Positions 41,801 to 52,505 of a stretch of DNA of 64,000 nucleotides are shown here, piece after piece; the stretch's first letter is position 1, and the number at the start of each line of letters is the position of its first letter. Below the pieces are notes generated by a model. It was not told the origin of the DNA, ran no database searches, and was given only the letters and a program-made list of their open reading frames with translations. Source of the stretch: Methanofollis tationis. GTDB lineage: Archaea > Halobacteriota > Methanomicrobia > Methanomicrobiales > Methanofollaceae. A program made the translations under genes and the position numbers. The stretch is from positions 1,995,104 through 2,059,103 of the forward strand of contig NZ_JABXWR010000001.1 of NCBI RefSeq assembly GCF_013377755.1, written 5' to 3'.

Positions 41801-43190
41801 ACTGACTACGCCGTCAGTGGGTTCATCCCCACGCGAGTGGGGAACTCCCGCAGACTACGCGCCGGGTTATATAGACGGGCGGTTCATCCCCACGCGAGTG
41901 GGGAACTCAGCACCGATAGCGCTGAGACCGTAGATATCGACGGTTCATCCCCACGCGAGTGGGGAACTCTCGTTGAGTTTGACGCGCTTTGCGACCTGCA
42001 TCGGTTCATCCCCACGCGAGTGGGGAACTCTACTGGCGTTTGACCTCTTCGAGCGCGATGATCGGTTCATCCCCACGCGAGTGGGGAACTCACGTCACCG
42101 CTGCCGCCACATCCGGGGCGTATCGGTTCATCCCCACGCGAGTGGGGAACTCGTTGAGTCATTACAGCCGCCTCCCGTCATCGACGGTTCATCCCCACGC
42201 GAGTGGGGAACTCTTTCCGGTGCCGGGTGTGCGGGACGCTGCAGACCGGTTCATCCCCACGCGAGTGGGGAACTCATGTTGAGCACCCGGGAGAGGGCGG
42301 GGTCTTTCGGTTCATCCCCACGCGAGTGGGGAACTCATAGTGGTTGGAGAAGCGTGGGGGTGATAGAACGGTTCATCCCCACGCGAGTGGGGAACTCGGC
42401 TGAGAGAGTCTATATCGAGCCTGTCCCATCGGTTCATCCCCACGCGAGTGGGGAACTCCGGGCGGCGATAGCACCGGAGGATACCGCTTTCGGTTCATCC
42501 CCACGCGAGTGGGGAACTCTGGGACTCAGCGACCGGCAAAACGAAGAGATTCGGTTCATCCCCACGCGAGTGGGGAACTCTATGTATATGGAGCGTGGAT
42601 AGTATATATATTCGGTTCATCCCCACGCGAGTGGGGAACTCTGCGGTAATAACTGTAGAATCTACGTCGTGGACGGTTCATCCCCACGCGAGTGGGGAAC
42701 TCGCTGTATATCCACCTGCACCCCGAGTTTTGCGCGGTTCATCCCCACGCGAGTGGGGAACTCGTTCGTTTTCCGTCTGTGCATTTTCCATTTTTCGGTT
42801 CATCCCCACGCGAGTGGGGAACTCCGGGTGCCTCTACGCCTTCTCAAAAGTAGGCTCGGTTCATCCCCACGCGAGTGGGGAACTCCTCCTCGGCCTGCGC
42901 CGAGACTGACGAAATACCGGTTCATCCCCACGCGAGTGGGGAACTCGCCCCTGCCGCCGCCGAGGTCGTCACCCTCACCGGTTCATCCCCACGCGAGTGG
43001 GGAACTCATGAAAAAGATTTAGGGCCATCAGAAGATCCCCGGTTCATCCCCACGCGAGTGGGGAACTCTCGATTCAGATACCCCTGCACCTTCCCGATCT
43101 CGGTTCATCCCCACGCGAGTGGGGAACTCTGAGAGAATGCGAATACCTGCGGCGATCCTTCCGGTTCATCCCCACGCGAGTGGGGAACTC
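20831..43190 (-). CRISPR. Very long type I-E CRISPR array (about 367 repeats)
   Basis: The 29-bp repeat reads on the plus strand CGGTTCATCCCC...GTGGGGAACTC, and on the minus (transcribed) strand GAGTTCCCCACTCGCG followed by TGGGGATGAACCG. That strand matches the E. coli type I-E repeat and gives the 8-nt crRNA handle ATGAACCG. The period is 61 bp (32-33-bp spacers). From the first repeat at 20831 to the last at 43162-43190 I count 367 repeats and 366 spacers, extrapolated from spacing with checks along the array rather than counted one by one. Repeats are virtually invariant apart from the second one (T to C at about 20895) and about 13 changes at the first base. The array is transcribed leftward from the leader at 43191-43320, so the newest spacers are on the right. 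Confidence 0.99.
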
Positions 43191-43320
43191 TCTTCCAGTT
43201 ATCATCCCGAGAAAGAAATTTCTTTCTATGCTGCGCCAGGAACAGCCCCACACCATCGTGGTGCGAGAGCCCCCTGCCTGATGACAGAGGATGCGTGGGT
43301 GAAAAAGAGATAGACGCCCA
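43191..43320 (-). promoter_or_regulatory. CRISPR leader between cas2 and the newest repeat
   Basis: 130 bp separate the cas2 stop from the first leader-side repeat. A perfect 18-bp palindrome, AGAAAGAAATTTCTTTCT, lies at 43210-43227, 34 bp from the last spacer-repeat junction side and 20 bp from the repeat edge. A small hairpin (CACCA-TCG-TGGTG) is at about 43250-43262. An AT-rich GTGAAAAAGAGATAG stretch near 43300 could support a promoter. The leader should hold the array promoter and the site that directs integration. Confidence 0.8.
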
Positions 43321-44515
<1,195 letters not shown>

Positions 44516-44519
<4 letters not shown>

Positions 44520-45202
44520 ACCGGCCTGATGAGCAGCAGCCCGCAGCCGAAACTCTTCGCCGGCCCGATCCCGGCATACAGGGCCTGCTCAAACCGCTCG
44601 GGATCCGTCACCGTCAGCACACCGGTAAAATCGATGGTGCTGATCGAAACCCAGTGCTTCCCTTTCGGCTTCTTAAACCGGTGCTGCCGATATCCATCCG
44701 CCCGGACCATACCCTCTTCAACGGCAAACCCCGCCGCCTCAGACCTCGAAGACAACCAGGAAAACCCTTCCTTCTGGACAAGTATCTCCTGTGAGGGCAT
44801 GGCGTCGGATGGGCACCCGGACTGCTCCAGCAGCACTTTTGCATCCATCACCACATCGTGCCGGTGCTGCCTCCTCTCCTCGTCCCTCTTAGACCGTATG
44901 GGATTCGCTCTCAGGGAAAACCCGAAACGTTGCCCTGTCCTGAGCACCGGGTTGTACTCCTTCGACTCCACCGCCCAGATCCCGTCAAGATCCACCGGTT
45001 CTGCCGTTGACACTGCATAGATCACCGGTGACGCCTCCTGCATCTCCAGGCGGTAGATGAAATCGCGGTCCTTTCTCGACCCATCCGAAAAGATCCGCCA
45101 CACCATCCCGTGGACATCGTACGGATTCCGCACGCTCCGCCAGAAGGCTGGTGTTCGCTGGACGTCGTCCCGCAGGCGTATGCGGTAGATGGACCGCTTC
45201 AT
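44516..45202 (-). CDS. cas6e: Cas6e, crRNA-processing endoribonuclease
   Basis: Cleaves the array transcript within each repeat, leaving the 8-nt 5' handle, and stays bound to the 3' hairpin as part of Cascade. 228 residues from ATG 45202 (MKRSIYRIRLRDD). The probable catalytic His31 lies in NPYDVHGMVWRIF, equivalent to the Y-x-x-H-x-x-x-W region of E. coli Cas6e. The C-terminal Gly-rich loop GIGPAKSFGCGLLLI is typical. I reject the longer ORF start at 45262 because it adds 20 residues without likeness and overlaps cas5e, whereas 45202 gives an ATGA overlap with the cas5e stop. Confidence 0.96.
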
Positions 45203-45951
45203 CTGACCCCCTCCGGCACCTGCACCAGGGCCCCGTGTTCCTTGCGCTCCGTAAACTGCCACCGCCGCCGGTTCAGCGCAACATCGCGCCTCTGGACGGT
45301 CTGACTGCTCTCCACCGCAAAACCTGTATTCTCCTCATCTTCCCAGAAGAGCATTCCGCGCTCTTTACCGGCAATGGGGCTCATCATCCCTATATTCTGG
45401 AAAACTGCCGCCTCCATCGCCGCACGCAGGTTATCACCCCTGACGACCTGCGGCTGCAGCGGGAGCGCCACCGGGCAGGATCTCCGCCCCAGGTAAAGGG
45501 TGAATACCGGACTATTCAGCGCCTCCGCAAGTTCGGAGAGGAGATAGGGGGGATTTTCGGTCGCAGCCCGGATGCAGACCGTGTACAGTGCATCGCAGAA
45601 GTACTCCCGCGTCGAGAGGATCGTATTCAGGTCATCCCGGTGAATGCTCACCTCCTCCCGGCGGGTGGCAAACGGCCATGCCCGTTTCTTTGTTATCTCT
45701 GATGGCACCTGGGTGGTATGGTAGTCCCGGATCAGACTGCCCGGGGTATTCACCAGTACAGCCATTCGGTAACTCTCCTGCAGTTCTTTCAGATCTGCGG
45801 CATCCTCGCGGCGGATGCCCAGCGCTGCCGCCACCAGCCCGAAGATCGCCGACCTGGAGGGGTGACTCTCCGAAGGGCGATACTCTCCAACCGCCACACC
45901 GCCCCACGCGGCCATCGGGCCGAAGAGTCGGAACAGGAGATACTCAGGCAT
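45199..45951 (-). CDS. cas5e: Cas5e, Cascade backbone subunit
   Basis: 250 residues from ATG 45951 (MPEYLLFRLFGPMAAWGG). The start and the segment YRPSESHPSRSAIFGLVAAALGI are characteristic of Cas5e, which holds the 5' handle of crRNA at the Cse1 end of Cascade. Further matches are DYHTTQVPSEITKK and LYLGRRSCPVALPL. The start overlaps the cas7e stop by 8 bp; the longer frame to 45996 is unlikely. E. coli CasD is slightly shorter (about 224 residues). Confidence 0.96.
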   Translation of the reverse strand: MPEYLLFRLFGPMAAWGGVAVGEYRPSESHPSRSAIFGLVAAALGIRREDAADLKELQESYRMAVLVNTPGSLIRDYHTTQVPSEITKKRAWPFATRREEVSIHRDDLNTILSTREYFCDALYTVCIRAATENPPYLLSELAEALNSPVFTLYLGRRSCPVALPLQPQVVRGDNLRAAMEAAVFQNIGMMSPIAGKERGMLFWEDEENTGFAVESSQTVQRRDVALNRRRWQFTERKEHGALVQVPEGVR

Positions 45952-47080
45952 GGTCACCCGACACAAAGGTAAGGATCTCTTTGAGCGTACCCACACCCGC
46001 GGCAGCGTTCATCGTCATGGTATCCCTGGCGCACGCCCCGTAGGTCTTCTCCATATTCTCCCGCGTCTTCTCCAGGACATTCACTGCCGTCGTCAGGTAA
46101 TCCTCACCGCCGACGGGCTTGAGGAAGGCCACCGCGAGCGATCGCGGCTGCTGGCTCCCCCGCTCGGCAAGGATATAGGATGCATAGGCCCGCGAGGCAA
46201 AACTGTTCTGTTTCCCTTTTGGCCCAACCTTTGCCGCCGCCTCGGTGAGGGCAGCGATTGTCTTGTCAGCCAGTTCTGATTTCCCGCCCAGATTCTCCAC
46301 CAGAAGGTCGCGGTTGATGCAGAGGTACGCGTAATAGAGTCCGGCCGCAAACTCGGCCTGACCTACGTGCGCAGCACCGACATCCTCGATACCCCGGTTG
46401 AGGTCATCGACGGCGGTGAAGTAATCGTCCTCCACCGCCACACGGTGGACGGTGATCGCATGGGCCACCTGGACCGCCGCCTCACAGTTGAAAGAAGGCG
46501 ATGAAGCCAGCATCCTGCCGAACATGGCGATATCGACTGCCGAGTTCTCCTCCCGCAGAAGGGCGAGATCCTCATCTGATGGGTCTTTCCCGCTCTCGAC
46601 GAGGCGCGAGAGCAGTGCGTCGATCGCCGCAATCTCATCCGGGCTGAAATGAACCATCTGCTCGACACAGAGCGACTCTTTCTTCTTCTTCTCTGTGTTC
46701 TCCTCGTTTGAATCCTTGACAGATTTCAACTTTCCAAACTGAGCGGCGATCGCCTGGCCCCATTCCACTGCTTTCTTCTCCGCCACCCCTGTCCGCACCG
46801 GCGCCGCATCTCTCTCTTCAAGGACATCGGACAGTGCCTTTCCGCCTTTCATGGCAAGGTAGATGTTCCAGCCCATCTCTTTGGTGCGGATGCCAAGATG
46901 ATCGCCAAACGCTTCCTTAAATATCTCGGACGTGCGCCACGCCCGCTTCAGGCTCTGCGATGATACACGTAGTCTGCAGGCCCCGCCCATCATTGCGGTT
47001 TTCGGCCTGCCCAGGTCGTCACGGTTCAGGTTCGACGGGGGATACGATGCAAGCATATGTAACTGGATAAATTCTGCCAT
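45944..47080 (-). CDS. cas7e: Cas7e, Cascade crRNA-binding backbone subunit
   Basis: 378 residues. Six copies of this protein coat the spacer part of crRNA in type I-E Cascade. The start FIQLHMLASYPPSNLNRDD and RLRVSSQSLKRAWRTSEIF match CasC/Cse4. ELADKTIAALTEAA, GKQNSFASRAYASYIL and the C-terminal MNAAAGVGTLKEI fit as well. A Lys-rich insertion (NTEKKKKES) near residue 130 lies in the variable thumb/helical region. It starts 11 bp after cse2. Confidence 0.97.
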   Translation of the reverse strand: MAEFIQLHMLASYPPSNLNRDDLGRPKTAMMGGACRLRVSSQSLKRAWRTSEIFKEAFGDHLGIRTKEMGWNIYLAMKGGKALSDVLEERDAAPVRTGVAEKKAVEWGQAIAAQFGKLKSVKDSNEENTEKKKKESLCVEQMVHFSPDEIAAIDALLSRLVESGKDPSDEDLALLREENSAVDIAMFGRMLASSPSFNCEAAVQVAHAITVHRVAVEDDYFTAVDDLNRGIEDVGAAHVGQAEFAAGLYYAYLCINRDLLVENLGGKSELADKTIAALTEAAAKVGPKGKQNSFASRAYASYILAERGSQQPRSLAVAFLKPVGGEDYLTTAVNVLEKTRENMEKTYGACARDTMTMNAAAGVGTLKEILTFVSGDHA

Positions 47081-47091
47081 GTTTTTTCACC

Positions 47092-47601
47092 TCATTCTTT
47101 CTTCGGGATGTTCATGTAATACGACTCTGCCCACGCTCTTTTTGTCTTGGGGTCCCACCGGTACAGCCCCCACACCAGATCACGGATGTTCGCCTTCCGA
47201 TCGATCATTGTGACCAGCCGTTTCATCATCGGGAAGAGTTCAACATAGTCATAGTCCTCCACGCGGAGAAGCCGGCGGAACCGCGCCTCACTCACCCGTG
47301 CAGTTGCCCCCCCATCTTTCGGGTGGGCGAACTGTGCGGCAAGCCTGACCCCATCGGCGGATGTTTCAACATCTGCAAGGACTCCTGCAATCACAGCAAG
47401 TTTCTCGCGGTCCCATGTTGGCAACGCCGCCTTCAACCGGTAGTAGGCTGGAACAAAGGCCACCTCTGCCGGCGTCCGGCAGCGCCGCAACTCCGCCCGC
47501 TCCCCGCGGTGGGCCTTGATCTCTCTCCACCAGTTGAGGATCGCGTCCATAGGTTCGTCCTTATGGCCTGAATCCTGTACCGTATTCTCTGTCATTGTCA
47601 T
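47092..47601 (-). CDS. cse2: Cse2 (CasB, Cas11e), Cascade small subunit
   Basis: 169 residues, an all-helical basic protein present as a dimer along the belly of Cascade, where it steadies the displaced DNA strand. RAELRRCRTPAEVAFVPAYY and RFRRLLRVEDYDYVELFPMM correspond to the conserved basic segments of CasB. The start overlaps the cse1 stop by 4 bp. A short N-terminal extension (TENTVQDSGHKDEP) looks disordered. Confidence 0.94.
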   Translation of the reverse strand: MTMTENTVQDSGHKDEPMDAILNWWREIKAHRGERAELRRCRTPAEVAFVPAYYRLKAALPTWDREKLAVIAGVLADVETSADGVRLAAQFAHPKDGGATARVSEARFRRLLRVEDYDYVELFPMMKRLVTMIDRKANIRDLVWGLYRWDPKTKRAWAESYYMNIPKKE

Positions 47602-49235
47602 TTCTCACCCTTTACGGATTTTTTCGGTTCAGGGAGGTTAAGCGCCTTCCTGATCGCTTTGTTCGCCTTTGAAGCAGGGCTTTTCATCAACCCCCACGCC
47701 TTCATCACCCTCTGAGCATTGATCTCGTCGATCGAGTTGATCTGAGAATACTCCTCGAAGAGGGTGCGCCCCTCCTCCTGGAGGATGCCGAGCCATGCCT
47801 GCCGGAGTTCGAGGGTATCCCCGTTCCCAGCGAGGCATTCGGCGACCTTGTTGAGCAGATCGTAGAACCTCTCCTCGGTCGCCTGGAGGAAGCGGGCGTT
47901 GATGACCGAGAGGTCGCCCTTCACATCTGCGGGTTTGTCATAGAGGGCAATCTTCACGCACCACTGGACGTTCTTCGCCATCTCAGAGGCGGCCCGGATC
48001 ATCCCGGCCGCCGTCTCCTCAAACTCCGCCTTCCAGTCATCATCGACATGGACCATTGGCAGGGTGCCCTCGTACCAGCACCTGACCTTTTTGTTTTCCA
48101 TATCATAGCCAAAGGCCCATATCGACGGCCGCCGGCCGAGGTGCTCCCTGACCTGAGATCTCTCTGCACGCTCTGGGAAGAGGGCAACATTTTTTGCAAC
48201 CCGTCTCCCTTCATTCCGGTCGTTGATGACCAGGCCAAGCCAGTTCTGGTAGGTTATCCCACCGGGTTGGGGATGGACAGGCAGGTATTCGGTGCCTTTT
48301 TTATCTTTTGGATAATACGGGCTGAGGGGGTGGACCCACCCGTTGTACTTCATTCCGTAGGGTTTCGTCCAGAAGCCCGTGATGCACCGGTCTGTTTTTG
48401 CGCCGCAGAGATCGCAGACTCCAGGCCTGGCTCCCTCCAGATCGAGCAGGATGCGGCGCGGCATCCCCCAGAAGGCCTGGCAGGGGTGTGCATCCTCAGG
48501 CTCTGTACTATCCCCACCTTCACTTGTCTTCACTTTGCCCATCCAGGGGAAAAGCCGGTCGTCGTCAGCTGAGGGGTTTTCGTCCACCGGGTGAGTATAA
48601 TTGTTCAGATCAATGATGTTTGCCCATACCGTCTGCCAGAGCGTCTCACCAAGGACGAGGGTGGTCATCGGGCCACCCCCCCTGATCGAGGTCATGTGCC
48701 CGCGTCCACCGCTCGGCGCGTTCGTCTGGAGGGTGAACAGTGCCAGAGAGGCGCAGTGGGGACAGAGGGCGTCGATTGTCCCTCTCTTCTGGAACCAATC
48801 TGTGTTATCCTTGATCTTTTCTTTTTCTGGCATCCCGATGAGAAGACTATCGATCTGCCAGAGTCTGTCGCTCTCTATCCCTCTCTCCTGCATGAACAGA
48901 GGGCCGTCTCCTCCAATGGCAAATGCCCCGGTCAGGGGGGAGAAGGCGGCCTGCAGTTTATCCGGGAGTGGTGGGTTGACTAAATTTTTTCTCCATTCTC
49001 CTTTGTCCTCTGGTGGAATTGCAGTCTGGCAGAGTCCTATAAGGAACTGGACCAGCGCTCCATCGAAGTCAGGTCGAGGAGATGCTATTGATCTAACGAA
49101 GTTGCCGTCGTGCTGGTCGGTGATCTGCCAGGGGGCGATTGTTTCGGTTGTGCCGTCTTTACGGATGATCGGGATCCAGGGATCCTGGATCAGGTTGAGT
49201 GGAGGAATGGTACCCCTCCGAGTTTTTCTATACAT
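47598..49235 (-). CDS. cse1: Cse1 (Cas8e, CasA), Cascade large subunit
   Basis: 545 residues, the subunit that reads the PAM, opens target DNA and recruits Cas3. The start LNLIQDPWIPIIRKDGTTET is the classic CasA beginning. Two cysteine pairs, CPHC (near residue 165) and CDLC...C (near 280), suggest a zinc-bound domain as in some bacterial Cse1 proteins. The C-terminal four-helix bundle region is present (QINSIDEINAQRVMKAWGLM). Somewhat longer than the E. coli protein (about 502). It starts 52 bp after the cas3 stop; that gap is AT-rich and could hold a secondary promoter. Confidence 0.97.
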   Translation of the reverse strand: MYRKTRRGTIPPLNLIQDPWIPIIRKDGTTETIAPWQITDQHDGNFVRSIASPRPDFDGALVQFLIGLCQTAIPPEDKGEWRKNLVNPPLPDKLQAAFSPLTGAFAIGGDGPLFMQERGIESDRLWQIDSLLIGMPEKEKIKDNTDWFQKRGTIDALCPHCASLALFTLQTNAPSGGRGHMTSIRGGGPMTTLVLGETLWQTVWANIIDLNNYTHPVDENPSADDDRLFPWMGKVKTSEGGDSTEPEDAHPCQAFWGMPRRILLDLEGARPGVCDLCGAKTDRCITGFWTKPYGMKYNGWVHPLSPYYPKDKKGTEYLPVHPQPGGITYQNWLGLVINDRNEGRRVAKNVALFPERAERSQVREHLGRRPSIWAFGYDMENKKVRCWYEGTLPMVHVDDDWKAEFEETAAGMIRAASEMAKNVQWCVKIALYDKPADVKGDLSVINARFLQATEERFYDLLNKVAECLAGNGDTLELRQAWLGILQEEGRTLFEEYSQINSIDEINAQRVMKAWGLMKSPASKANKAIRKALNLPEPKKSVKGEK

Positions 49236-49287
49236 AGTTTTACCATTGATTTTCCTCTTAATACGCCATCACATAAATACTGATCGA

Positions 49288-51960
49288 TCATGGGGCCGTC
49301 CTCATCAGTCCAACTTCCTGATGATACCTCAGCATGACTTCTTTGCCTGAATGGTTCAATGTGGATCCCTCCCAGCCCTCTTCTGAAGAATGAAGGGGAA
49401 CAATCACGGCATTCTTACCCATGTCCGCCATCCGGCTCTTTGCCCTCTCCACCGCCCCGGCGAGCGGCTGGGCAAACGCTACCTCACTGGCGGCATAGGT
49501 CTCCCGCACGCTCACCTGGCTCAGTTCCCATGCAGCCCGGGGATCAGGTGCGTCAGCCCACGGCCAGACTTCTTTTCCATCCCACCGGGCAAGCCGCAGG
49601 GTGACTGTTGGTTCTCCAAGGCGGGTTGGCGTCCGGGCATCGCTCTGCCACTGGCCTTCGGTCATCGTATACCCCTTTTTGAGCTTGAGGGCACTTTCCG
49701 CTGCAAAAGAAGCGTCGGCATTATCCTTTCCCCGATTTTCTGCGGCAGCCTTCTGTAAGCCGTCAGGGATCACACCCTCACTCTCCGGTCCGAAGACAGA
49801 CTCGATGAGGATACGGGCATCGCGCGGCACAACAATCTCGCCTCTCTCCCCCAGGATCCCGGCCGTCAACCAGAGTCGAGCTGGATCGGGATACACCCAT
49901 GCCCCCCGAGGGAAGAGGTCAGAATACCATGTCGCACCTGGCTCTTCTGTCTGCAGCGGTGAGAGGACGATGAGCCGGGCCTCCCCGCGGGGGCCGCGAT
50001 CATGGCGATGGACCCTGCCTGCCCGCTGTATCAGAAGGTCAATTGGGGCGAGATCGCTCACCATCAGGTCGAAGTCGAGGTCCAGAGATTGTTCCACCAC
50101 CTGTGTTGCCACAAGGATCCTGCCTGCCCGAACTTCCGGCGTGCTGGCCTTTCCAAAAGTCCGGGTCACTGTCTCCTCAATCTCCAGACGGTCAGCGAGG
50201 GCGAACCTGGCATGGAACAGGCGGACTGTACCCGCCGGAAGCCTCTCCTTTAACCGGATATATGCTTCTACGGCGTCGTCCACCGTATTCCTGACCCAGC
50301 AGGCGCACCCGCCGTTCTGTGCCTCTTCGATGAGTGCTGCCTCCGCCTCATCCTCTGATGAGACGAGGCTGACTCCCACACGTTTCTCCCCAATGGCGGT
50401 GAGAGGGTGTTCGTCCGGCGGCCCGGCCAGCGAGAGGTGGGTGATCAGGGGATAGCCCCCTGATGTAAGTATCCCGATCGGCCACCCTGCCCCCCGTGCA
50501 AAACGCCTGGCCAGCTCTTCCCTCTGCCTCTGTGTCATCGTTGCCGAGAGCAGGATCGCACTCCCGCCTGATGCGGCATGGAACTCAAGGAGGACCTGCA
50601 AAAGTTTGTGCATATAGGAGTCGCAGGCATGCACCTCGTCCACGATGAGAATATTTCTGGCCAGACCGATCAACCTGAGCGACTGGTGATGCACCGGGAG
50701 GATGGAGAGAAGTGCCTGGTCGACCGTCCCGACGCCGACCTGTGCGAGCAGCGCTTTTTTCCGGTTGTCGGAGAGCCATGCTGTCCCGGGATTTCTCGAC
50801 CCGATTCTCTCATCAAGGAATGTCTGCATAACCCTCTGGAGCCGGCTGGCAGAATGGGCAAGGACCTGAGAGTACGAACGCTCCTCGAAGAGGGAATCTG
50901 ACGTTCTGTTGATCCGGGAGTACATGGCATTGGCAGTCGCCATCGTCGGCAAAGCAAAATAAATCCCTTCTCCGTCTCCCTGTGCCATCATCCGGTGAGC
51001 GAGGGTGATGGCCGCCTCAGTCTTGCCGCTCCCGGTGATATCCTCGATGACGAAGAGGTGGGGGCCGGTGCCGAGGGTGCAGGTGGCACAGTAGTGCTGG
51101 AGATCAGTCGGGGCATGTTCCGGAAAGATAGAGGGAAAAAGGATCTCCAGACCCTGTTCACTGGCAGGTCTGACCGGTATGATGCCTTTTTCCCTGACGG
51201 CCTTCTCGGCTCGTTTCAGTGAGACCTCCCAGTAAGCGGTGAGGGGTGTATGCTCCTGGGTGAACCTGAAATAGTCGCGGTCTGATCCGATCCAGTCGCA
51301 GAGTGTGCAGAACCCGGCAAGGAGCCATGAAAATTGAGGGACTCTCTTTGCAAGGTCGTCTTTGGCCAGGAGGGGCCAGGTACCGTCCACGAAGAAGAGA
51401 GAGGCGCAGTCTTGAACGAATGTCTCTGCCGCCTCGATATCTGCCGGGAGAAACGAACGTCTGAAATGGCTGAAGTCCCCTGCCGGTGGGGTGCCGTGGT
51501 GCCCACAGACGGCCTTGAGGAGGGGGAAGAGGACATCCTGCCACTCATCGCTATCGAAATCTCCATCCAGTCTGATCAGGTTTTTTTCAACCACGCTGTC
51601 CCAGAGTATCTCGTTCCAGAGTGCGAACCCCAGATCGCTGTGGTGTCCGGGTATGCAATCCCCTTCTATACCCTGGAGAGATGCTGATGCCCGGGAATTC
51701 TTCAACTGGAAGGCTGGCGTGGAGAACTTTCCAATATCGTGGGTGGCAAGCAGAAAACAGATGAGTGGGGTCAGCTGATCAGAGCTGACCTGCAGAACGC
51801 CTGCCATGCGCTCTCGCAGAAGTGCGTCGCGGCCCAGGATCACCGAACCGACAGCGGCTACGTCAAGGGCATGATAGGGCAGAAGGTGGGTGATCCGGGG
51901 TTCATTCTCTCTCGGGCTCTTGCCCCAGTACCGGAAATAGGGCGGGGGTGAGGAATCCAT
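49288..51960 (-). CDS. cas3: Cas3 helicase-nuclease
   Basis: 890 residues, degrades DNA flagged by Cascade. An N-terminal HD nuclease domain has H30 (LLPYHALDVA), H74-D75 (ATHDIGKFS), HH at 106-107 and HH at 154-155 (VCGHHGTPPAGD). The superfamily 2 helicase follows: Walker A ITGSGKTEAAI at about 308-318, DEVH at 441-444, SAT at 472-474, and motif VI QRAGRVHRH. A C-terminal domain completes the fold. All key motifs are intact, with no internal stop. First gene of the cas operon; a TATA-like box lies about 85-100 bp upstream. Confidence 0.98.
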   Translation of the reverse strand: MDSSPPPYFRYWGKSPRENEPRITHLLPYHALDVAAVGSVILGRDALLRERMAGVLQVSSDQLTPLICFLLATHDIGKFSTPAFQLKNSRASASLQGIEGDCIPGHHSDLGFALWNEILWDSVVEKNLIRLDGDFDSDEWQDVLFPLLKAVCGHHGTPPAGDFSHFRRSFLPADIEAAETFVQDCASLFFVDGTWPLLAKDDLAKRVPQFSWLLAGFCTLCDWIGSDRDYFRFTQEHTPLTAYWEVSLKRAEKAVREKGIIPVRPASEQGLEILFPSIFPEHAPTDLQHYCATCTLGTGPHLFVIEDITGSGKTEAAITLAHRMMAQGDGEGIYFALPTMATANAMYSRINRTSDSLFEERSYSQVLAHSASRLQRVMQTFLDERIGSRNPGTAWLSDNRKKALLAQVGVGTVDQALLSILPVHHQSLRLIGLARNILIVDEVHACDSYMHKLLQVLLEFHAASGGSAILLSATMTQRQREELARRFARGAGWPIGILTSGGYPLITHLSLAGPPDEHPLTAIGEKRVGVSLVSSEDEAEAALIEEAQNGGCACWVRNTVDDAVEAYIRLKERLPAGTVRLFHARFALADRLEIEETVTRTFGKASTPEVRAGRILVATQVVEQSLDLDFDLMVSDLAPIDLLIQRAGRVHRHDRGPRGEARLIVLSPLQTEEPGATWYSDLFPRGAWVYPDPARLWLTAGILGERGEIVVPRDARILIESVFGPESEGVIPDGLQKAAAENRGKDNADASFAAESALKLKKGYTMTEGQWQSDARTPTRLGEPTVTLRLARWDGKEVWPWADAPDPRAAWELSQVSVRETYAASEVAFAQPLAGAVERAKSRMADMGKNAVIVPLHSSEEGWEGSTLNHSGKEVMLRYHQEVGLMRTAP

Positions 51961-52205: not shown

Positions 52206-52505
52206 TTGCACCACTCTACACCCCCTTTTTGCACCCAAACAGACACATTATAATGCCTCAATCCAAAATTCCGCCCAAAACACCCCCATCATCCCCCTCA
52301 TGTGCACCTGTACACGGATCGCACACACACCCCCACCCACAGACCCCTACCGACCCGGTGAGGTGGGTGCCTCTATTCTGGTGCAATCTACTATTATAGG
52401 AGAGAGAGATCTCTCTCTTCTCTATAGAATATACAATCCGGGCTCCATCCTCTATCCCCGTCCCTTGCACATTTCCGGTGCAATCCCGGTACACATGGGG
52501 TGCAA
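52206..52505. repeat. Cluster of GGTGCAA / TTGCACC boxes between cas3 and a decayed gene
   Basis: The heptamer TTGCACC occurs at 52206-52212 and 52229-52235. Its reverse form GGTGCAA occurs at 52380-52386, 52477-52483 and 52499-52505. A related TTGCACA is at 52465-52471. Surrounding DNA (about 52140-52350) is unusually C-rich and G-poor on the plus strand. The clustering in an intergenic region between divergent transcription units suggests binding sites for an unknown regulator. No gene is supported in 52070-52576. Confidence 0.5.

Follow-up and report, generated by a model that had tools for sequence, protein, structure and literature searches.

The leader of a type I-E CRISPR array contains a perfect 18-bp palindrome, AGAAAGAAATTTCTTTCT, which comparison of related loci supports well as a copy of a conserved element in archaeal type I-E leaders. 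We lean slightly towards the view that this dyad is a candidate dimer-type protein-binding site marking the leader–repeat junction for Cas1-Cas2 without IHF; in these archaea, it may be what directs the spacer-inserting enzyme to its target.

The type I-E locus and its palindrome

The window—the whole 64,000-nucleotide stretch of DNA analyzed—codes for a complete type I-E set according to NCBIfam matches (cas3, cas8e, cse2, cas7e, cas5e, cas6e, cas1e, and cas2e), with all eight genes on the minus strand, running from cas3 (51960) to cas2 (43321). The array has a 29-bp repeat, 354 of its 366 spacers are 32 bp long, and its leader adjoins cas2, as is characteristic of type I-E. The features are listed below, with negative positions counted outward from the first repeat.

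20831–43190, minus strand: type I-E CRISPR array, 367 repeats and 366 spacers
43162–43190, minus strand: first (leader-proximal) CRISPR repeat, GAGTTCCCCACTCGCGTGGGGATGAACCG
43191–43320, minus strand: leader, 130 bp from the cas2 stop to the first repeat; past -38 it is unconserved in near relatives (column identity ~0.3)
43191–43195, minus strand: junction element GAAGA touching the first repeat (-5 to -1), part of the archaeal junction motif ATAtAAgntGAAGA
43199–43202, minus strand: AT-rich ATAA box between dyad and repeat (-12 to -9), invariant in 19 aligned near leaders
43210–43227, minus strand: perfect 18-bp palindrome, the dyad at -37 to -20, from sequence and conservation in relatives
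43321–43617, minus strand: cas2e (TIGR01873, E 8.7e-34)
43605–44519, minus strand: cas1e (TIGR03638, E 1.8e-110), with Tyr137 at E. coli Cas1 position 132
44516–51960, minus strand: cas6e, cas5e, cas7e, cse2, cas8e (cse1), and cas3, in order away from the array (NCBIfam)

The array is very long, and 365 of the 366 spacers are distinct, with spacers 39 and 42 being identical. There are 14 variant repeats, 13 of which are altered at the last base; in E. coli, the last repeat base is described as deriving from the PAM (PMC10011333). Rfam gave no match between window positions 43000 and 43700, and the second Cas1 gene of the window genome has no arrays nearby (C1:24000–55000 examined).

The original prediction placed a perfect 18-bp palindrome at 43210–43227, about 20 bp from the repeat; the sequence bears this out, and the gap is 19 bp (43191–43209). 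With up to three mismatches allowed, AGAAAGAAATTTCTTTCT has one match in the 64-kb window, the palindrome site itself (0.02 expected), and a perfect palindrome of at least 18 bp arises in a fraction of 0.00035 of 20,000 simulated 133-bp sequences with the dinucleotide make-up of the leader. The expected number of perfect palindromes of 18 bp or longer is 0.4 in 64 kb, and the window has two; conservation is a stronger argument against chance than these statistics. The other perfect 18-bp palindrome, AGAGAGAGATCTCTCTCT (52401–52418), lies ~440 bp upstream of cas3 and lacks GAA/TTC half-sites. One way to parse the leader 18-mer is as a pair of RGAA-N6-TTCY units that overlap with an offset of four bases (at -37 and -33); this would account for its length.

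Conservation of the dyad in archaeal leaders

The original prediction proposed comparing related leaders to see whether the palindrome is present at the same distance from the repeat. It is not missing: the dyad is present in all eight cas2-adjacent near leaders (every locus that is not a duplicate, has a readable leader, and encodes a Cas1 of at least 79% identity), and in these, as in 11 leaders of other arrays, it lies at exactly -37 to -20 with 6–9 of 9 pairs formed. The inverted repeat and its distance are therefore kept, but perfect 18-bp symmetry is confined to the window; the near-relative consensus is RGAARGAA-nn-TYCYTTCY, and the window, with 9/9 pairs, is the extreme and sole perfect copy. 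Among seven of the cas2-adjacent leaders, which were gathered without using a motif, column identity is 0.88 at -38 to -20, 0.62 at -19 to -15, 0.75 at -14 to -1, and 0.31–0.37 further out, and across 15 rows it is 0.87 and 0.83 in the arms, 0.36 in the center, and 0.30–0.33 upstream. From these alignments, we take the conserved feature to be a pair of purine-rich half-sites flanking a free center, not the full 18-bp symmetry.

By its named relatives, the window genome belongs to Methanomicrobiales, a methanogen order of the archaea. Searching 232 genomes of this order with a pattern listed 61 places, 30 of which were checked (L153–L182); 14 are followed by at least one type I-E repeat (seven beside cas1e and seven not), and 16 are not. 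All seven leaders away from cas1e have the dyad at exactly -37 to -20, with the pattern having prescribed GGAA-N6-TTCC and left the outer GGAA at -37 and the 19-bp distance free. A second search, by the leader–repeat junction alone, led to 16 new-looking or unclear stretches being fetched, which comprise 10 true leaders, four array-internal stretches, and two that are not arrays. Four of these leaders (three new in genome G091 and one in G095) carry the dyad at -37 to -20 with 7–8 of 9 pairs; in L224 it is 3 bp closer to the repeat, L219, L220, L222, and L223 have 2–5 of 9 pairs at -37 to -20, partial at best, and L218 has no dyad. Of these 10, only the four with the dyad at -37 to -20 entered the 19-row alignment and covariation control; L226 (G095) is on both lists, and eight of the 11 non-adjacent near leaders come from the list of a pattern that itself fixes part of the dyad.

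Arrays with the dyad lie ~9–10 kb from cas1e in G071 and G122, 184 kb away in G091, ~1.05 Mb away in G086, and on another contig in G095, and they are also present in two genomes without a Cas1e over the cut-off (G058 and G079). G091 has four further dyad arrays besides the one beside cas1e, three of them 129–194 kb from it. On contig C1 of this genome there are no fewer than five type I-E arrays, with a single Cas1e above the cut-off; each of the five has the dyad, and the leaders upstream of it are largely unlike each other.

For archaeal type I-E leaders at large, we collected Cas1e loci from the order, the phylum, and named relatives, read the sequence from cas2 to the first repeat, and removed near-copies (90% over 60 bp), leaving 48 archaeal and 54 bacterial leaders. 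Thirteen loci were at first unanchored, of which L089, L138, L139, and L024 were rescued (L024 by hand) and nine were left out: the more distant archaeal I-E loci L119, L131, and L135, together with L062, L098, L114, L115, L141, and L143. An EM motif search outside the last 20 bp of the 48 archaeal leaders returned the palindromic GGAAnnaantTTCC, with a log-likelihood of 203 compared with 48.5 ± 2.9 for shuffled controls (20 sets, with a smaller number of restarts). It starts within three adjacent positions in 37/48 leaders (shuffled maximum, 8), and the similarity of its matrix to its own reverse complement is 0.94 (shuffled mean 0.67, maximum 0.84).

The GGAA-N6-TTCC motif starts at -40 to -37 in 38 of the 48 archaeal leaders—with AGAAAGAAATTTCT at -37 as the window row in the EM search—and the second G and its partner C are invariant in all 38. 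At 90% redundancy, the strict pattern at -40 to -36 is present in 32/48 archaeal leaders (0.29 expected) and 0/54 bacterial leaders, and at the strictest cut, 55%, in 9/18 and 0/26, respectively; a looser dyad pattern matches 37/48 archaeal leaders and one of the 54 bacterial leaders (L099). This form is missing from 10 (EM) or 11 (loose pattern) of the 48 archaeal leaders, some of which have other dyads. The EM junction motif, ATAtAAgntGAAGA, starts at -14 in 47/48, and the window has all the parts by which archaeal dyad leaders are defined: a dyad starting at -40 to -37, an ATAA-type box, and the fixed junction end.

Outside the closest relatives, GGAA-N6-TTCC is centered 2–5 bp further from the repeat, such that the dyad center lies between -28.5 and -33.5 depending on lineage, a range of about half a helical turn. 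A center-by-center symmetry profile without realignment had its top archaeal peak at -16 and only small peaks at -28.5 and -32.5, which are weak because the dyad shifts by 1–5 bp between lineages, and it was replaced by the EM search. Per-leader inverted-repeat scores reach p ≤ 0.05 in 11/48 archaeal and 5/54 bacterial leaders, and since these scores are weak by themselves, the argument rests on position and sequence and not on how strong a hairpin would be.

Two other kinds of symmetry were seen. Five leaders (L036, L038, L089, L136, and L138) belong to a separate archaeal Cas1e clade with ~48–59 bp between cas2 and the array, and their dyad has ATATA-containing arms and a short center at about -36 to -10, within the last 40 bp; the inner arm letters vary between members yet are mostly complementary. 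L127, a leader without the GGAA-N6-TTCC dyad, has a perfect 16-bp palindrome, TTCCATATATATGGAA, near the repeat at -18 to -3.

Bacterial leaders, HU/IHF proteins, and Cas1

The same EM search of the bacterial leaders found TcGGTAGAtTTTt (TcGGTAGA) near -56 in 47/54 and CAatggGtTAnAaGaAGT at the leader end, which, by their consensus, we take to be the anchor and the IHF-type core, respectively; an E. coli plasmid locus, included as a control, has TTGGTAGA at the same place as the bacterial leader motif. By pattern match, the GGTAGA upstream motif near -56 is found in none of the 48 archaeal leaders, including that of the window. GGTAGA near -56 is also missing from six bacterial I-E leaders that do not belong to the GGTAGA clade (two from Streptomyces and one each from Thermus, Bifidobacterium, Lactobacillus, and Deinococcus), and by eye these have no dyad. 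One locus counted among the bacteria, L097, is on a 3.3-kb contig in a Sumerlaeota MAG and codes for a Cas1e nearly identical to that of archaeal L125; this archaeal sequence under a bacterial MAG title is probably misbinned.

The expectation that IHF is lacking here, as in archaea generally, agrees with the absence of any PF00216 match in the window genome, which is 99% complete; as a control, PF00216 was found in 9/14 named genomes. It has no match in 230 of the 232 genomes of the order, many of which are incomplete, and two of the 135 good genomes have one; at the level of the phylum, 384 of 392 genomes have none. Seven of the eight phylum genomes with PF00216 are in one family, which is without Cas1e among the 34 carriers, and G150 is the only genome that combines a Cas1e above the cut-off with a PF00216 match, the latter on contig C128 of an assembly in 130 contigs. 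In family f23 (G289, G294, G312, G369, G508, G514, and G528), frames of ~240–260 aa each have two HU/IHF-type matches. The window genome has no match to MC1, and it has one Alba gene and two histone genes, with nothing linking either to the dyad.

We scanned the columns of Cas1e and Cas2e for those separating 37 dyad archaea from 46 GGTAGA bacteria, with at least 80% agreement in each group, and found no such column in Cas2 but two in Cas1, at E. coli positions 43 and 132. At the latter, 53/54 bacterial proteins have Arg (the exception being L097), as do 0/48 archaeal proteins, which have Tyr (39), Leu (5), Ser (3), or His (1); in the window Cas1, the residue is Tyr137. In the published integration complex of E. 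coli, Cas1 residues R131 and R132 presumably touch the upstream motif. Arg132 is also lacking in the six bacterial Cas1e proteins of other clades without GGTAGA near -56 and in three more distant archaeal Cas1e proteins. The correlation of Arg132 with leader type is, on these sequences, confounded with the Cas1e tree: the bacterial Cas1e proteins form one clade, and leader type thus tracks Cas1 lineage and host domain equally.

Readings of the dyad

The symmetry itself gives mixed signals. Across the 19 rows, sliding the partner by 1–3 columns lowers pairing from 86% to 42–69%, pairing is modestly high compared with re-dealt letters (31/500 as high), and 15 cells are changed on both sides versus 9.1 in re-dealt letters (6/500 as high). 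The covariation score is 0.207 versus 0.141 when re-dealt (5/500 as high), although a +1 slide equals it (0.209), and neither pairs with two-sided changes (364/500 as high) nor further pair types (484/500) are above re-dealt letters. Covariation is accordingly weak and suggestive only, with two of five measures clearly exceeding shuffles and relatedness inflating the control. The outer pair divides into A-T and G-C according to whether a leader is beside cas or distant, and this possibly reflects a single event. Fixed position and half-site sequence are the solid part of the case, with the symmetric changes again suggestive only.

Such changes, which occur in both arms at pairs 1 and 5, would be expected of an RNA hairpin, whether at the end of the cas mRNA or as a structure in a leader transcript, and some copies fold well: 4/200 shuffles do as well as the L166 distant-array copy, at -12.3 kcal/mol, and 9/200 as well as the window copy, at -5.7 kcal/mol for 25 nt. 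We nonetheless regard a hairpin as improbable. The L022 copy reaches just -1.5 kcal/mol (161/200 shuffles as good), the last 60 nt of the window leader fold no better than shuffles (84/200), and pairing in the core equals that of re-dealt letters (0.882 versus 0.868, p 0.29); a cas terminator is countered by retention of the dyad at arrays far from cas1e. It is also the letters that are conserved and not just the pairing, as with the second pair, G-C in 38/38 rows, and conserved half-site letters around a free center favor a DNA-binding dimer over an RNA hairpin. That the palindrome is a functionless accident within a purine/pyrimidine-rich run is scarcely credible; the two perfect palindromes in the window where 0.4 are expected, and the restriction of perfect symmetry to one of 19 near leaders, would suit it, but it is already contradicted by conservation, with position and half-sites kept in the 19 near leaders and in 38/48 archaeal leaders, far above shuffles.

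The main rival to a role in integration is that the dyad is an operator, at which a dimeric transcription factor controls transcription of the array (pre-crRNA) and which is not needed for integration; we consider this possible, if rather unlikely. Dimeric regulators typically have dyads whose half-sites are separated by roughly one turn of the helix, and the dyad here is kept both beside and far from cas1e, as expected of a promoter element. A palindrome loosely similar to it lies upstream of cas3 (AGAGAGAGATCTCTCTCT), but this lacks the half-sites, and the 18-mer recurs nowhere else in the window, even when three mismatches are allowed. Matches to AGAARGAANTTYCTTCT with up to two mismatches in its own genome give four rows, two of which are the leader site on both strands; the reversed control gives six, which leaves no sign of a regulon. 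The array promoter is reported to sit in archaeal leaders (PMC3491384, PMC3124441), and the 10-nt promoter spacing described at two Pyrococcus abyssi arrays would put a start set by the ATAA box near the junction (PMC3124441), whereas the spacing in Nanoarchaeum equitans, with TATA at -27, would put it inside the first repeat (PMC3491384). The choice of spacing, 27 nt as in N. equitans or 10 nt as in P. abyssi, decides whether the ATAA box could serve as a TATA box, and the latter weakens the argument that it cannot. The exchange of the dyad with the IHF/GGTAGA elements fits integration better than an operator.

The dyad, the ATAA box (-12 to -9), and the GAAGA end form a ~37-bp block beside the first repeat, for which we envisage a role in integration. 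A dimeric DNA-binding protein, either an archaeal host factor or subunits of Cas1-Cas2, would bind the dyad and anchor or bend the leader such that Cas1-Cas2 inserts spacers at the leader–repeat junction, and this system would replace IHF and the upstream GGTAGA anchor. At 20–37 bp from the junction, the site would probably reach the integrase only through a bend in the DNA or a protein that bridges the two, and the ATAA box, lying between dyad and junction, may be the flexible part. Because the dyad is largely inside the IHF interval, with no anchor visible beyond it and conservation ending at about -38 in the near relatives, a bending or bridging dimer would be favored, with direct binding of the dyad by Cas1-Cas2 as a close alternative. 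What is seen directly is the site with its symmetry, position, and conservation beside and far from cas1e, along with the lack of an HU/IHF match in the genome; that a dimer binds it, that the leader is bent or anchored, and that this serves integration are inferences. The shift of the center by about half a helical turn, together with the L224 offset, fits poorly with one rigid geometry. A more specific form of this proposal, which we put forward only tentatively, is that an archaeal substitute for IHF, a homodimer, folds the leader at the dyad, and Cas1-Cas2 with Tyr132 docks without a GGTAGA anchor.

In the type I-E leader of E. coli, Cas1-Cas2 is described at -1 to -4, IHF at -9 to -35, and upstream elements at -50 to -55, with a sharp bend bringing these back (PMC10011333). 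The archaeal system shares the Cas1e-Cas2e family, the operon order, and the repeat type, as well as an element in the last 40 bp that falls largely within the IHF interval (PMC10011333); unlike the E. coli type, the window genome has no HU/IHF match, no GGTAGA near -56, and no Cas1 Arg132, and these archaea instead have the GGAA-N6-TTCC-type dyad and the ATAA box. An inverted repeat in the leader is also common to type I-F, where it is reported to be contacted by Cas2 (R55, N56) in the course of integration (PMC12259127), although the I-F repeats act with IHF and belong to another subtype. The type I-D leader of Synechocystis (motifs II and III) likewise operates where no IHF homologue is reported, and a review relays the conjecture that the DNA is bent there by some other host factor (PMC10212523), but this too is another subtype, with a leader of 202–220 bp. 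The type I-A system of Sulfolobus is similarly archaeal; there, specific integration is reported to require further host factors, and Alba1 and Sso7 did not substitute for IHF in vitro (PMC5815122). It differs in needing a leader of at least 400 bp (PMC5815122), whereas conservation among the near relatives here spans ~38 bp. Among the papers listed, by titles and abstract openings, there is no description of a palindrome in archaeal type I-E leaders, although the leader-motif survey of Santiago-Frangos and colleagues (2021) may contain the motif.

How archaea, without a strong bender like IHF, direct spacer insertion to the leader end is a question raised by the work on type I-A (PMC5815122). 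A palindrome that is short, lies at a nearly constant distance, and is present at several arrays per genome makes this question directly testable, and one Cas1e family with the dyad in place of the bacterial elements provides a clear pair of contrasting leader types. If correct, the proposed homodimer would represent a host factor acting in archaeal spacer integration via a short defined site.
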